In this document: one piece after another, positions 39,030 to 47,744 of the stretch
Layout: every line of letters begins with the position of its first letter
Position numbering within the stretch: position 1 is the stretch's first letter
Source of the DNA: Falsiroseomonas tokyonensis
GTDB lineage: Bacteria; Pseudomonadota; Alphaproteobacteria; Acetobacterales; Acetobacteraceae
Length of the DNA: 64,000 nt
Reading direction: 5' to 3'
NCBI RefSeq assembly: GCF_019024325.1
Contig: NZ_JAFNJS010000002.1
Span: 124,118 to 188,117 of the forward strand
The notes under the pieces: generated by a model
What the model was told of the DNA's origin: nothing
Databases searched by the model: none
Seen by the model: the letters and a program-made list of their open reading frames with translations, nothing else
Translations under genes and position numbers: made by a program

Positions 39030-40604
39030 ATGTACCAGCCGCCCGACCACACCACCCAGCACTGGCAGGTCACCAAGCCCGCTGCCCGCGGCCGCCGGGG
39101 CATGGTCGCCAGCCAGTCCCGCGCCGCGGCCGAGGCCGGCATCGCCATCCTGGAAGCCGGCGGCAATGCCGCGGATGCGGCGGTGGGCATGGCCTTCGCC
39201 CTGGCCAGCACGGAGCCCTGGAACAGCGGCCTCGGCGGCATCGGCTTCGCCCAGGTGGCGGCCCCGGGCGGCCCGGCCGAGACCTTCGACTTCGGCCCCG
39301 TCTCCCCCGCCGGCCTCGATGCGAAGGACTTCCCGACCACCGGGCGGATGAAGCAGGACCTCTTCGCCTGGCCGGAGGTGGAGGGCGATCGCAACATCCA
39401 CGGGCCGATGAGCTTCTGCATCCCCTCCTCGGTCGCCGGCTATGCGCTGCTGCATCAGCGCCGCGGCCGGCTGCCGGTGGCGGAGGTGCTGGCGCCGGCC
39501 GTGGCCCTGGCGAAGCGTGGCCTGGCGCAGGACTGGTTCACCACGCTGAAGATCGCCAATGCGGCCTCCACCCTGAAGCTCTATCCGGAATCGGCGCGCA
39601 TCTACCTGCCGAACGGCCTGCCCCCCGTCGCCCCCTACCAGGGCAAGCCCGGCTTCTTCCGCCAGGGCAATCTGCCGGCGACGCTGGAGCGGCTGCAGCA
39701 GGCGGGCTTCCGCGACTTCTACGAGGGCGAGGTGGCGGCGGCGATCGCGGCCGATGTGCGGGAGGCGGGCGGCATCCTCTCCGCCGCCGATCTCGCCGGC
39801 TGCCAGGCGCGGGTGCTGCCGGCGGTCTCCGTCCCCTGGCGCGGCCGCACCCTGCACCTGTCCAATGGCCTGACCGCCGCCCCCACCTTCCGCCGCGTCA
39901 TGGCGCTGATGGAGGGGGCGGACTGGTCCGGGCAGGCGCCGGGCACCGCCTGGCACCTGGCCTTCGCGAAGGCGATGCAGGAAGCCTATGCCGAGCGCCT
40001 GGCCGGGCTGGGCGATGCCGAGCCCAAGGGCGCCGATAGCTGCACCACCCATCTGAACGTGGTGGATGCGGATGGCATGATGGTCTCCATGACCACCACG
40101 CTGCTTTCCTCCATGGGGTCCCGCGTCGTGCTGCCGCGCTCCGGCGTGCTGATGAACAACGGCGTCATGTGGTTCGACCCGCGGCCGGGCAGCGCGAATG
40201 CGATCGGGCCCAGGAAGCGCCCGCTGACCAATATGTCGCCGGTCATCGTGGCCGATGCGGCGGGCCGGCCGGAAATGGCGCTCGGTGCCTCCGGCGGGCG
40301 GCGCATCCTGGCGGCCGTCTTCCAGATGCTGTCGCTGGTCAGCGGCTTCGGCATGGACCCGCAGGCGGCGGCGCATTTCCCGCGCCTCGATGTCAGCGGG
40401 CCGGAGGGTGCGACGGCGGACCGCACCCTGCCGCAGGCGACGCTGGACGGGCTGGCGGCGATGGGGCCGCTGGAGCTGGTGGAGCATGCGGTGCTGCCGG
40501 TGAATTTCGCCTGTCCCAACCTGATCCTGGTGCAGCCCGGCGGCGAACGCATCGGCGTGACCGATGTGATGTCCCCCTGGTCCGCGGCGCTCGCCCAGCC
40601 GTGA
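39030..40604 (+). CDS. Gamma-glutamyltransferase family protein
   Basis: A 524-residue Ntn-hydrolase of the GGT family. The self-cleavage Thr339 is in SCTTHLNVVDADGMMVSMTTTLLSSMGS, and GGIGFAQV, GNAADAAVGMAFALA and GASGGRRIL are conserved substrate-site pieces; the last normally reads GSPGG. It would self-process into two chains. There is no signal peptide, unlike periplasmic GGTs, so it may act in the cytoplasm. ATG 39030 follows GGAGG. The stop overlaps the next gene (GOLPH3 family), an unexpected but clear coupling. Confidence 0.88.
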   Translation: MYQPPDHTTQHWQVTKPAARGRRGMVASQSRAAAEAGIAILEAGGNAADAAVGMAFALASTEPWNSGLGGIGFAQVAAPGGPAETFDFGPVSPAGLDAKDFPTTGRMKQDLFAWPEVEGDRNIHGPMSFCIPSSVAGYALLHQRRGRLPVAEVLAPAVALAKRGLAQDWFTTLKIANAASTLKLYPESARIYLPNGLPPVAPYQGKPGFFRQGNLPATLERLQQAGFRDFYEGEVAAAIAADVREAGGILSAADLAGCQARVLPAVSVPWRGRTLHLSNGLTAAPTFRRVMALMEGADWSGQAPGTAWHLAFAKAMQEAYAERLAGLGDAEPKGADSCTTHLNVVDADGMMVSMTTTLLSSMGSRVVLPRSGVLMNNGVMWFDPRPGSANAIGPRKRPLTNMSPVIVADAAGRPEMALGASGGRRILAAVFQMLSLVSGFGMDPQAAAHFPRLDVSGPEGATADRTLPQATLDGLAAMGPLELVEHAVLPVNFACPNLILVQPGGERIGVTDVMSPWSAALAQP

Positions 40605-41266
40605 GCGAGGGCGGCCTCACCCTGGCGGAGGAGATCGTCCTCCTCGCGCTGGATGACGAGACGGGCCGCCCGGTCGGCCGCAGCGGCATGGCGCCCGACC
40701 GGGCGCTGGCCGGCGCCCTGCTGATGCAGCTGGCGCTGGCCGGTCGCGTCGATACCGACCGGGACCGGCTGATCCTGGTGGATGCGACGCCAACGGGCGA
40801 TGCGGCGCTGGATGCCGCCCTGGCCCGGCTGGCCGCGCCCGGCGCGCCGGCCGATGCGCGCGGCGCCATCCCGCTGTTGGCGCGCGATGCGCCGGCGGCC
40901 CGCGCCGCGATCCTCGACCGGCTGGTGGCGCGCGGCATCCTGCGGCGGGAGGAGGGAAGGGTGCTCTGGATCCTGCCCGACCGCCGCTACCCCAAGACCC
41001 CCGGCCGGCCGGAGGTGACGGAGGCCCGCACCCGGCTGCGCACCCTGCTGCTGATGGAAGAAATCCCCGCGCCGCAGGACGCGCTGCTGCTCGGCCTGGC
41101 CCGCGCCGCCGGGCTGCTGCCGCTGCTGTTCTCGGAGGCGGAGCTGGAGGCGGTGCAGCCCTGGCTCGGCGTGGTGACGCGGATCGAGAGCCTGAACCGG
41201 TCGCTGGCGGTCGCGGTGTCCGACGTCCGGGGCGTCGGCCTCGGCACCGCCCAGCGGGAGGGCTGA
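40601..41266 (+). CDS. GOLPH3/VPS74 (GPP34)-family protein, copy 1
   Basis: A 221-residue protein starting at a GTG overlapping the glutamyltransferase stop. TLAEEIVLLALDDETGRPVG is the hallmark N-terminus of GPP34 proteins, followed by ALAGALLMQLALAGRVDTD and LVARGILRREEGRVLWILPDRRYPK, and a hydrophobic hairpin that in GOLPH3 inserts into membranes. Eukaryotic members bind PI4P on the Golgi; bacterial ones have no agreed function. The nearly same-length paralogue at 44652 shares EEI(V/L)LLxLDDETG(R/K)PVG and the RRYPK(T/A)xGR segment. The basic residues that contact PI4P cannot be verified by eye. Confidence 0.85.
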   Translation: MSEGGLTLAEEIVLLALDDETGRPVGRSGMAPDRALAGALLMQLALAGRVDTDRDRLILVDATPTGDAALDAALARLAAPGAPADARGAIPLLARDAPAARAAILDRLVARGILRREEGRVLWILPDRRYPKTPGRPEVTEARTRLRTLLLMEEIPAPQDALLLGLARAAGLLPLLFSEAELEAVQPWLGVVTRIESLNRSLAVAVSDVRGVGLGTAQREG

Positions 41267-44573: not shown

Positions 44574-44651
44574 GATCGGCGGGAGGCACCGCCATGGATG
44601 GCTCCGCGGGGGCCTTTCATGGCATCCTGTCCTGCAAAGACGGGGGCCCCG

Positions 44652-45317
44652 ATGTCGCTGACCATGCCGGAGGAGATCCTGCTCCTCCTCCTCGATGACG
44701 AGACCGGCAAGCCGGTGGGGCTGCCAGGCCCGGCCGGCGACCTGGCACTGGCCGGCGCCATCCTGATGGAGCTGGCGCTGGCCGGGCGCATCGACACCGA
44801 CCTCGACCAGCTGGTTCTGGTGCAGTCGCGGCCCACCGGCGACGCGCTGCTGGATGAGGTGCTGGCCCGCCTGGCCAGTGCCGCTTCGGCGGGTGGCGCG
44901 GAACGGACCAGCCGCTGGTGGATCCAGGATATCGCCAAGACCGGCCCCGCGCTGCGCGCCCAGGTGCTGGAACGCCTGGTGGCGGGCGGCGTGCTGCGGC
45001 GGATCGAGGACCGCTTCCTCTGGGTCTTCCCGGAACGCCGCTACCCCAAGGCGACCGGCCGGGCCGAAACCGCGGAAGTGCGGCGCCGCCTGCGCGGCGT
45101 GCTGCTGGAGGACGAGATCCCCGACCCGCGCGACGCGCTGCTGATCGGCCTGGCGAAATCCACCGGCCTGGTGCCGCTGGTGCTGTCCGAGGCCGAGCGC
45201 GCCGGGGCCGCGGCGCGGCTGGACCATGTGGCGGGGCTGGAGGAGCTTTCCCGCTCGCTCTCCGCCGCGACGCGGGATGTCTATGCGACGCTGCTGCGCC
45301 AGGGCGCGGTGCATTAA
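44652..45317 (+). CDS. GOLPH3/VPS74 (GPP34)-family protein, copy 2
   Basis: Again 221 residues, starting at ATG 44652 (an upstream ATG at 44619 is possible but less like the paralogue). MSLTMPEEILLLLLDDETGKPVGLPGPAGDLALAGAILMELALAGRIDTD parallels copy 1. The core WIQDIAKTGPALRAQVLERLVAGGVLRRIEDRFLWVFPERRYPKATGRAE and DEIPDPRDALLIGLAKSTGLVPLVLSEAER is more conserved than the rest. Two paralogues within 4 kb, one behind gamma-glutamyltransferase and one behind catalase, suggest duplication and separate recruitment. Confidence 0.85.
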   Translation: MSLTMPEEILLLLLDDETGKPVGLPGPAGDLALAGAILMELALAGRIDTDLDQLVLVQSRPTGDALLDEVLARLASAASAGGAERTSRWWIQDIAKTGPALRAQVLERLVAGGVLRRIEDRFLWVFPERRYPKATGRAETAEVRRRLRGVLLEDEIPDPRDALLIGLAKSTGLVPLVLSEAERAGAAARLDHVAGLEELSRSLSAATRDVYATLLRQGAVH

Positions 45318-45328
45318 AACCCGGGCCG

Positions 45329-46864
45329 TCAGCCCAGGCGCGGCGGCCGCCAGTCGAGGGCCAGCGCCGCGATGCGGGTCAGCACCGCGCCGATGACGGC
45401 CGCCACCACCACCACGATCACCTCATCCAGCTCGATCTCCGCCTTGCGCGCCATGAGGTAGGCGGACAGCGCCAGCGCCCAGATCAGCGCCACCTCGCCA
45501 TAGAAGCCGGTCTTCAGATTGGGGATATTGCCGCCGCCGCGCAGCACGTCGCGCAGGATGCCGCCACCCGCGCCGGTGATGGTGCCCAGCATGGGGCCCC
45601 AGAGCCAGAAGGGCTCCGCCCGCATGCCGAAGGCGACCGCCACGCCCAGCACGGTGCTGGCGGCCAGCCCCAGCGCATCCGCGGCATCGAACAGCCAGCG
45701 GTCGATCCGCCGCCGCCGCATCGCCACCGCCAGCTGCGCCACCCAGAAGGCCAGGATCAGCCTTCCGCGCAACAACCCCCAGAGATGGGTGACCGCCCAG
45801 CAGAAGATCACCGTGCCGAAGATCAGCTTCAGGAACAGCGGGTCCTGGGCGATGCCGATGGGAAAGCGCCCCACCAGAAGGTCGCGCAGCACGCCGCCGG
45901 CGGCCGCCGTGACGCCGGCCAGGACGAAGGCGCCGAACAGGCTCCAGCCGCTCAGCCGGGCTGCGAGCGTGCCGGCCAGCGCGGCGGCCAGCGTGCCCAG
46001 CACCTGCAGCGTGCGGAACCAGTCGCTGTCGAGCGTCTTGGACAGCAGCAGCGGAAAGCGGAAGCGCGCGGCGATCTGGTCCAGCGTGCCATCCGCCCGC
46101 AGCGCCAGGATCGCCTCGTCGAAGGCCGCCACCGTCGCCGCGGGCGTCGTGGCGCGGCTGAAGGCCAGGTGCAGGGGGATGCGGTGGCGCATCGCCTGCT
46201 CCTCCACCGCCTGGCCCAGGCGCAGCTCGGTGATGGCAAGGGCGACGGACAGCCGCTCCGCCAGGAAGCCGTCGATCTCACCGGCCAGCAGGCGGCGCAG
46301 ATTGGTGGCATCGTCATCCGCCGCGCGGACCTGGCCCGGGTCAGGTGGCTGGGCGATGACTTGGTCCAGCGCCGCGTCGAAATAGCTGTAGCCGGCGCGC
46401 ACGCCCAGGCGGAAGCGGCCATTGGCCTGCAGATGCGCGGCCAGGCCCGCGGCATCGGTGAAGCGCAGCGCGGCGGCCTCGCCGCGCCGCATGATCAGCA
46501 CATTGGTATCGAAGCGATAGGGGCGAGACAGCGCATAGGTCTGCTGCCGCGCCTCGGTTGTGGCGATGCCGGTGAAGAGGTCCATGCGCCCGGCAGCCAC
46601 ATCCTCCAGCAGCGGCAGGTAGCCGTGCTGCGTCCAGCGCAGCGCATGGCCGGCATGGCGGGCCAGGGCCTGGACCATCTCGATATCGAGGCCGGTCAGC
46701 GCCCCGTTGCGCTGATACTGCTGCGGTTCGGAGGCATACCATCCGGCGCGCAGCACCGGACCCGGCTGGGCCAGCGCCGGCCCGGCAAGGAAAAGCGGCG
46801 CGCCGGCCAGCAGGATCAGCCAGAGCCGGCGCGCGAAGGCCCGAAGCGGTTCAGCCCGAGGCAT
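45329..46864 (-). CDS. Periplasmic ligand-binding domain fused to a TRIC-type (UPF0126) cation channel
   Basis: A 511-residue two-part membrane protein. Signal or first helix about 12-32 (LWLILLAGAPLFLAGPALAQ); periplasmic SBP_bac_3 domain about 36-275 (RAGWYASEPQQYQRNGALTGLDIEMVQAL, FTGIATTEARQQTYALSRPY, LRRLLAGEIDGFLAERLSVAL); then about seven helices 283-505 forming a TRIC/YicG unit, with its two pseudo-symmetric pore motifs AAAGGVLRDLL (320-330) and GAGGGILRDVL (431-441). TRIC homotrimers are K+-permeable channels. The fusion implies that an amino-acid-like ligand gates an ion or solute pore, as in bacterial glutamate receptor channels. It overlaps the deacetylase gene upstream by 14 bp. 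Both parts look complete. Confidence 0.88.
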   Translation of the reverse strand: MPRAEPLRAFARRLWLILLAGAPLFLAGPALAQPGPVLRAGWYASEPQQYQRNGALTGLDIEMVQALARHAGHALRWTQHGYLPLLEDVAAGRMDLFTGIATTEARQQTYALSRPYRFDTNVLIMRRGEAAALRFTDAAGLAAHLQANGRFRLGVRAGYSYFDAALDQVIAQPPDPGQVRAADDDATNLRRLLAGEIDGFLAERLSVALAITELRLGQAVEEQAMRHRIPLHLAFSRATTPAATVAAFDEAILALRADGTLDQIAARFRFPLLLSKTLDSDWFRTLQVLGTLAAALAGTLAARLSGWSLFGAFVLAGVTAAAGGVLRDLLVGRFPIGIAQDPLFLKLIFGTVIFCWAVTHLWGLLRGRLILAFWVAQLAVAMRRRRIDRWLFDAADALGLAASTVLGVAVAFGMRAEPFWLWGPMLGTITGAGGGILRDVLRGGGNIPNLKTGFYGEVALIWALALSAYLMARKAEIELDEVIVVVVAAVIGAVLTRIAALALDWRPPRLG

Positions 46865-47744
46865 GGTCCTTGCACCATTGCGCAACCTGGGCATGGGTGG
46901 CGAACCACACCCCCTCATGCTTCTTGATCCGCGTCACCAGCCGGTCCAGCAGGGTGATGCGGCTGCGATGGCCGATGACATGCGGATGCATGGTCAGCAG
47001 GAACATGCCGCCCTCCGCATAGGCGCCGTCGAATTCGGCGGCGAAGATTTCCTCCACGGCCGAGGGCGGGGTGTAGGGGCGGAGCCCCGAGAAGCGCAGC
47101 ATATTGAAATAGACCGCATCGTCCCGGATCCACTCCGGCGGCAACTCGACGATGCCGGTCGGCTCGCCCTGGTCCAGCAGCTCATAGGCATCGTCATCCG
47201 CCATCAGGGAGCTGTCATAGAGCAGCCCCATCTCCTTGATGATGGACAGCGTATCCACCGAGAAGTCCCAGGACGCCGTCCGCATGCCGACCGGCCGCTG
47301 GCCGCTGACCTTCTCCAGCGTATCCCGTGCCCGCAGCGTCAGTTCGCGCTCCACTCCGGGGGGCAGCTTGGTGTTCGCCTCATGGATCCAGCTATGGACG
47401 CCGATCTCGTGGCCTTCCTGCGCCACGGCACGGACCTCGTCCGGGTGCAGCAGGGCGGAGACGGCCGGGTAGAAGAAGGTGGCCGGGATGCCGTGCTTCG
47501 CCAGCAGGGCGCGGATGCGCGGGACACCCTGGCGGTTGCCGTATTGCCCCTGGCTGATGCGCATCGGGCTTTCGTCATTGTCGCGCAGCGGAATCGTCTC
47601 GTGATCCGCATCGAAGCTCAGCGTCACGCAGCAGCGCGCGCCGTCCGGCCAATGCGTCGGCCGCAGGCTGCGCCCGGCCCGCGCCCGGCCGACGATCTCG
47701 CGCCATTCCGGCTCGCTCCATTCCCACGGATTTGCGCTGGTCAT
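46851..47744 (-). CDS. Polysaccharide deacetylase (NodB)-family protein
   Basis: A 297-residue NodB-fold metal hydrolase: SFDADHET carries the first Asp, HSWIHEANTKL the two-His metal motif, and GMRTASWDFSVDTL the catalytic Arg/Asp region. ATFFYPAVSALLHPDEVRAVAQEGHEIGVHSW is typical. No signal peptide, so a cytoplasmic amidase-like member (PuuE/allantoinase-like) is as likely as an exported sugar deacetylase. It starts at ATG 47744, and its end overlaps the start of the channel-fusion gene by 14 bp. The overlap suggests that its product or substrate is the ligand sensed by the channel; this is speculative. Confidence 0.88.
   Translation of the reverse strand: MTSANPWEWSEPEWREIVGRARAGRSLRPTHWPDGARCCVTLSFDADHETIPLRDNDESPMRISQGQYGNRQGVPRIRALLAKHGIPATFFYPAVSALLHPDEVRAVAQEGHEIGVHSWIHEANTKLPPGVERELTLRARDTLEKVSGQRPVGMRTASWDFSVDTLSIIKEMGLLYDSSLMADDDAYELLDQGEPTGIVELPPEWIRDDAVYFNMLRFSGLRPYTPPSAVEEIFAAEFDGAYAEGGMFLLTMHPHVIGHRSRITLLDRLVTRIKKHEGVWFATHAQVAQWCKDHASG

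Follow-up and report, generated by a model that had tools for sequence, protein, structure and literature searches.

The gene at 45329-46864 on the minus strand of the window, the 64,000-nucleotide stretch of DNA analysed here, joins a solute-binding domain of the SBP_bac_3 type to a seven-helix TRIC pore. We tentatively read the product as a binding-protein-coupled amino acid permease. The periplasmic SBP_bac_3 domain would bind an alpha-amino acid, or a compound much like one, and then close, and closure would pull TM1 of the same TRIC subunit via a short helical junction. Release of the outer lock of the pore would then let the solute in. We infer that three subunits form a trimer and that the bound amino acid is itself the permeant, moving inward.

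Two complete domains in one reading frame

The fusion gene is a single open reading frame of 511 codons with zero internal stops, which contains the following elements:

45329-46864, minus strand: open reading frame of the SBP_bac_3-TRIC fusion, 511 aa
46766-46864, minus strand: hydrophobic N-terminal signal sequence, about residues 1-33 (modelled as a helix at 5-20)
46040-46759, minus strand: SBP_bac_3 domain, residues 36-275 (Pfam match and fold)
45350-46018, minus strand: seven-helix TRIC domain, residues 283-505 (Pfam match and model)
45791-46009, minus strand: first PF03458 repeat (C12:169908-170126)
45470-45682, minus strand: second PF03458 repeat (C12:169587-169799)

Pfam places SBP_bac_3 (PF00497) at residues 44-268 with 66.1 bits against a curated cut-off of 26.4, while PF03458, the TRIC/UPF0126 family that Pfam names Gly_transporter, matches two stretches of the C-terminal half with 70.7 bits against a cut-off of 23.5. 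In the structural model this half comprises seven helices, and it matched the solved TRIC fold. Judged by the tested features of sequence and fold, the fusion is a member of both families, and the unbroken frame, the Pfam matches and the model bear out the preliminary description of one 511-residue protein made of the two domains. A hydrophobic N-terminal 12-mer is also present in 74 of 76 relatives tested, and the signal sequence is probably cleaved.

The same description had considered that two separate genes might have been misjoined by sequence error. The only observations in line with such an artefact are in-frame stops in two of 80 fusion relatives (L059 and L103) and a contig end that cuts the gene in a third (L109). 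The other 77 are uninterrupted single frames from independent assemblies, which excludes a misjoin. Moreover, GC at third codon positions is high before and after the SBP/TRIC junction, and codon bias runs continuously across the window fusion. An artefactual fusion is thus practically out of the question. The stops (four in L103:6001-7386, one in L059:6001-7386) lie in draft genomes and may reflect pseudogenes or assembly errors.

Ligand-binding residues, junction and pore

Conservation was assessed in an alignment of 78 rows, comprising the window protein and 77 intact relatives, with one relative (L102) aligned only from residue 108. Two residues of the binding cleft stand out:

46547-46549, minus strand: R106, counterpart of the Arg that contacts the ligand alpha-carboxylate
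46256-46258, minus strand: E203, counterpart of the alpha-amino-binding Asp

Searched against the PDB, the profile of the 78 fusions retrieved amino acid SBPs, best GlnPQ, followed by ancestral arginine/glutamine-binding proteins. R106 aligns with the Arg of these proteins, which we take from LAO-type structures to hold the alpha-carboxylate, and is Arg in 77 of 78 rows, the remaining row (L102) having a gap. Position 203, presumably equivalent to the alpha-amino-binding D161 of LAO, is Asp or Glu in 75 rows; L102, L112 (Asn), and L113 (Ala) carry neither. At positions 42, 45, and 82, which we assume to map onto the LAO side-chain pocket, Trp occupies 70, 48, and 67 of the 78 rows, respectively (W42, S45, and Y82 in the window protein). 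As judged from these aligned residues, the side-chain pocket seems more aromatic than that of LAO. The best NCBIfam model for the SBP half is a cystine-binding protein, at 53 bits against a cut-off of 312.

The preliminary description had also raised a degraded binding cleft in homologues. Given the conserved Arg and Asp/Glu, this is not seen, and family-wide degradation was rejected. The contrary cases are L112 and L113 together with two divergent third paralogues (L033 and L034), in which the binding Arg is absent and the two motif Arg are replaced by Lys and Ala.

The two halves meet in a junction of constant length:

46016-46054, minus strand: junction from P271 to W282-F283, leading into TM1

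The junction comprises 12 residues in 78 of 78 rows, and W282 and F283 occur in 75 and 74 of them. In 25 ordinary TRICs W282 is absent, and two of the 25 have Phe at position 283. The longest length-invariant stretch of the alignment, residues 241-318, extends from the last SBP helices through the junction and TM1 to the start of TM2. Length invariance is shared by 161 of the 440 twelve-residue windows in the alignment and by the TM1-TM2 loop, so that the constancy of the junction alone is modest evidence of rigidity. In the model of the window protein, helices 260-278 and 281-304 are nearly continuous, and the model of an Aquimarina member shows the corresponding helices 242-260 and 263-286. 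The two modelled proteins share 25% identity and reached pTM values of 0.84 and 0.85, the latter for the Aquimarina member. Junction and predicted structures together favour a mechanical coupling over a loose tether, and the length-invariant helical junction could couple cleft closure to TM1. Further, Su et al place the helix that lies between TM2 and TM3 on the extracellular side, which puts the TRIC N-terminus outside and is consistent with an SBP in the periplasm. The TM3-TM4 loop of the window protein is Arg-rich, with six Lys/Arg and one Asp/Glu.

The pore half carries both glycine motifs and the residues around them:

45983-45985, minus strand: A294, counterpart of SaTRIC F20
45881-45901, minus strand: TM2 motif A322-G-G-V-L-R-D328
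45677-45679, minus strand: D396 in TM4, counterpart of SaTRIC D99 (cytoplasmic lock)
45656-45658, minus strand: S403, counterpart of SaTRIC F106
45548-45568, minus strand: TM5 motif G433-G-G-I-L-R-D439

In the TM2 motif G323 and R327 are invariant (78/78 each) and D328 is kept in 77 rows, while G434, R438, and D439 of the TM5 motif are kept in 78, 76, and 73 rows. The preliminary description had thus correctly recognised both pore motifs (AGGVLRD and GGGILRD), and all four Arg/Asp positions are kept together in 72 of 78 rows. D396 is Asp in 75 rows and Glu in three; its SaTRIC counterpart D99 affects ion selectivity. The outer lock consists of D/E287-R327-D328-Y344 in most members, with Q287 and F344 in the window protein. 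The constriction is altered in the window's genus. The counterparts of SaTRIC F20 and F106 are Phe in 63 and 62 of 78 rows, the former also in the solo TRIC of the window genome, but in this genus both are replaced by Ala or Ser, which suggests a wider pore.

Spread and descent of the fusion

The preliminary description had proposed a search for the SBP_bac_3-TRIC architecture across genomes. Scanning genome_contigs with two short peptide patterns and keeping 80 of 97 relatives, which must undercount the spread, we found the fusion in eight named phyla, many of them represented by draft metagenome assemblies only. Going by record titles, 54 relatives belong to Pseudomonadota, nine to Verrucomicrobiota, five to Cyanobacteriota, three to Planctomycetota, two to Thermodesulfobacteriota, and one each to Acidobacteriota, Vulcanimicrobiota, and Bacteroidota, with four lacking an assigned phylum. 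Closer to the window, matches at E <= 1e-20 occur in three of 249 genomes of the family sample, the window's own included, all of the same genus, and matches at E <= 1e-15 in 19 of 385 genomes of the class. Full-length fusions are present in 14 of these 385 (table read by eye, own genome included), several with two or three copies, and the nearest relatives of the window fusion carry the names Roseomonas or Falsiroseomonas. A viral or plasmid gene was considered and rejected. None of six stretches returned from viral_contigs is a relative, and none of 22 matching plasmid records covers 80% of the query, the 20 plasmid matches listed corresponding to the SBP part only.

Several genomes of 1.3-1.6 Mb (G358, G461, G529, and G596) hold two or three fusion copies, although in G358 and G461 the third copy looks degraded. 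At four loci (L065, L069, L071, and L106) a second copy or fragment adjoins the first on the same strand. The window genome encodes its ordinary 215-aa TRIC on another contig; in 13 of 16 hand-picked genomes, some of them incomplete drafts, the fusion is the only TRIC-family protein found.

A quick tree was built from 68 TRIC domains, namely 40 of the 78 fusions (hand-picked for spread), 24 solo TRICs and the genome's own, two SBP-less proteins (L021 and L022), and a fusion with an NMT1 domain (L024); eight fusion rows, five second-repeat duplicates, and one fragment were left out. A branch with SH-aLRT 99 splits the 25 ordinary TRICs from the fusion group, in a tree where 28 of 65 inner branches fall below 80 and some end branches are long. 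On this sequence basis, the pore halves of the fusions form a TRIC subfamily separate from ordinary bacterial TRICs. They share with SaTRIC, SsTRIC, RsTRIC, and CpTRIC the seven-helix fold, the glycine motifs of TM2 and TM5, the R-D pairs, and the TM4 Asp, but differ in the N-terminal SBP, the marks W282, F283, and W422, and their separate clade.

L021 and L022 are placed within the fusions, as if they had lost their SBP. Both keep W282-F283 and have Met in place of the TM2 motif Arg; no separate SBP gene was found among the ten neighbouring ORFs scanned, four of which lack a Pfam match. Pairwise identities of the SBP and TRIC halves correlate with r = 0.81 over 3003 row pairs, and with r = 0.42 over the 2749 pairs below 50% in both halves, as expected if the halves travel together. 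L024:1420-3303 (genome G445) combines a different SBP type (NMT1/THI5) with a TRIC of a related branch and shares the W-F junction, as expected if the SBP sets specificity. A full-length NMT1-TRIC was found in one of 289 genomes searched, and its neighbours, read by eye, gave no hint of function.

Genomic context and candidate functions

Upstream of the fusion lies a hydrolase gene:

46851-47744, minus strand: polysaccharide-deacetylase/PuuE-like hydrolase, overlapping the fusion start by 14 nt

Owing to this overlap, the two genes probably form one operon. Six relatives of the lineage (L035-L039 and L044) have a homologue of the hydrolase gene immediately upstream of the fusion, with Pfam confirmation in L035 and L039. 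Promoters or terminators were not found around the fusion gene, nor were permease or ATPase partners of an ABC importer among the nearest window genes scanned. Across the 80 loci, whose neighbours were scanned in part with Pfam and NCBIfam, no partner gene common to many phyla was recognised, which counts against the permease reading. The largest neighbour cluster (14 of 80 loci) contains TctC receptors in the one member scanned and the second (nine loci) amidases, again in the one member scanned. The remaining clusters are lineage-bound and include housekeeping genes, and ABC-transporter-like genes occur in six loci at varying positions.

Two loci of different phyla pair the fusion with a PanP-like amino acid decarboxylase gene. 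A PLP decarboxylase gene follows on the same strand 1 nt after the fusion stop in Marinomonas (L108) and overlaps the stop by 4 nt in Aquimarina (L114). Both enzymes come nearest to the aspartate decarboxylase model PanP, with 512 and 523 bits, below its cut-off of 606. Fusions and decarboxylases of the two loci are 48% and 47% identical, as if they had travelled together; searches of 199 and 293 kin genomes found this fusion version in no other. A decarboxylase gene coupled to a transporter is typical of decarboxylase-antiporter pairs. On this reading, the SBP would sense an amino acid outside the cell and the pore would release a product such as the decarboxylated compound, and metabolite efflux by prokaryotic TRICs was proposed by Silverio and Saier (as given in PMC5401562). 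We consider such an exporter or exchanger improbable, as the neighbours scanned at the remaining loci included no recognised decarboxylase, and a review (PMC12173739) links UPF0126 genes to glycine utilisation, which points to uptake.

According to this review, 11 bacteria depend to an important degree on UPF0126 genes for glycine utilisation, and the genes were predicted to encode a glycine transporter. Together with the decarboxylase gene in two phyla, this favours the amino acid permease. The conserved Arg and Asp/Glu of the SBP, the invariant junction with nearly continuous helices in two models, the several copies in genomes of 1.3-1.6 Mb, and the role of the fusion as the sole TRIC found in most genomes checked all count for it as well, as do the different SBP of L024 and the probably wider pore of the window's genus. 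The decarboxylase pair, recognised at two of 80 loci and possibly owed to one transfer event, weakens the case. In addition, the open SaTRIC pore of about 4 Å (PMC5477506) would be tight for solutes larger than glycine.

The preliminary description had proposed a ligand-gated ion channel, in which binding of an amino acid would close the SBP and thereby make the TRIC pore passable to K+ or other cations, as in GluR0. This view is supported in part, by the fusion, the ligand-binding residues, the pore motifs, the junction, and the topology. The ion as permeant is not supported, as the glycine link and the coupled decarboxylase gene fit solute transport better. For K+, purified SaTRIC has a conductance of about 159 pS (PMC5477506), and RsTRIC and SsTRIC are reported to take part in K+ uptake in E. 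coli (PMC5401562); both observations count against a permease. The residues of the ion path are also kept, including D396. On the other hand, intracellular bacteria with small genomes have kept the fusion, although they would seem to have less need of a sensory channel. Altogether, we regard an ion channel as possible but rather unlikely. The same guarded estimate applies to an uncharacterised class of bacterial ligand-gated pores, of an origin independent of ionotropic glutamate and Cys-loop receptors, in which an amino acid SBP would be rigidly coupled to a TRIC pore and SBP closure would open one ion pore per trimer subunit.

Like GluR0 and the ionotropic glutamate receptors, the fusion couples an amino acid SBP directly to a pore in one chain. 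Its pore, however, is an unrelated TRIC, and its SBP is uninterrupted and placed in tandem rather than split. TRICs are trimers, whereas ionotropic glutamate receptors are tetramers. The K+-channel-like pore inserted into the SBP that characterises GluR0 is absent, and the fusion is therefore no ionotropic glutamate receptor by descent, even if its way of working may be similar. A glutamate-binding domain is able to operate an unrelated K+ pore (PMC6385376). Among bacterial Cys-loop channels there is likewise a precedent for a PBP joined to a ligand-gated channel, either fused to it or encoded in the same operon (PMC549065), but there the pore is a Cys-loop pentamer that has a ligand domain of its own.

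On the transporter side, the SBP shares fold and alpha-amino-acid contact residues with the SBP_bac_3 proteins of ABC importers (LAO, GlnBP, and ArtJ), but is covalently joined to a TRIC pore. In GlnPQ and OpuA the SBP is fused to a permease as well, and the GlnPQ SBDs are the top profile match among solved structures. These importers differ from the fusion in using ATP as energy source and in having an unrelated permease. From the flexibly tethered SBP of an ABC importer one would not expect a rigid junction, which counts against the permease reading. Prokaryotic TRICs with fused N- or C-terminal domains were reportedly noted by Silverio and Saier in 2011. A description of the SBP-TRIC fusion was not found in the literature covered, and it goes unmentioned in the passages covered of PMC3924187, PMC2950845, PMC7016017, PMC3964967, and PMC5898192; this absence is weak, as the 2011 TRIC survey lay outside the scope.

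A third reading makes the pore secondary. As a sensor or transceptor, the protein would have its ligand binding read out intracellularly via partner proteins or a cytoplasmic tail. In two Opitutales loci (L105:773-8079 and L113:5051-8064) the fusion has about 200 extra C-terminal residues and lies directly downstream of STAS and HATPase_c_2 genes, and L105 is near a Cache-HAMP-SpoIIE protein. A Cache-HAMP-adenylate cyclase gene overlaps the fusion stop by 4 nt in a Paracaedibacteraceae locus (L093:6001-9704), and the tail of an acidobacterial member (L072) may be related to the Opitutales tails (22% identity). This tight coupling to signalling genes in L105, L113, and L093 counts against a permease. 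A tail is missing, however, from the window protein, as it is from the remaining fusion frames of 493-552 aa, the pore residues are kept, and L113 has no alpha-amino Asp, making amino acid sensing doubtful there. We therefore judge the sensor unlikely. The tails of L105, L113, and L072 gave zero Pfam matches above cut-off. The L105 locus also holds an NMT1 SBP and forms a partner-switching cluster.

The cargo of bacterial TRIC/UPF0126 proteins is unsettled, with K+ in bilayers set against glycine by mutant fitness. With an amino acid receptor joined to the pore, the question can be put to a direct test, since the receptor shows which ligand to use and mutants that no longer bind it provide an internal control. 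Should ions pass, the fusion would add another kind to the bacterial ligand-gated channels, next to GluR0 and the Cys-loop proteins; passage of the amino acid would make it a binding-protein-dependent permease without an ATPase of its own.

Elsewhere in the window, two GPP34 (Golgi phosphoprotein 3) ORFs at 40169-41266 and 44598-45317, both on the plus strand, lie about 4 kb apart, with a TctC receptor and a long catalase between them.
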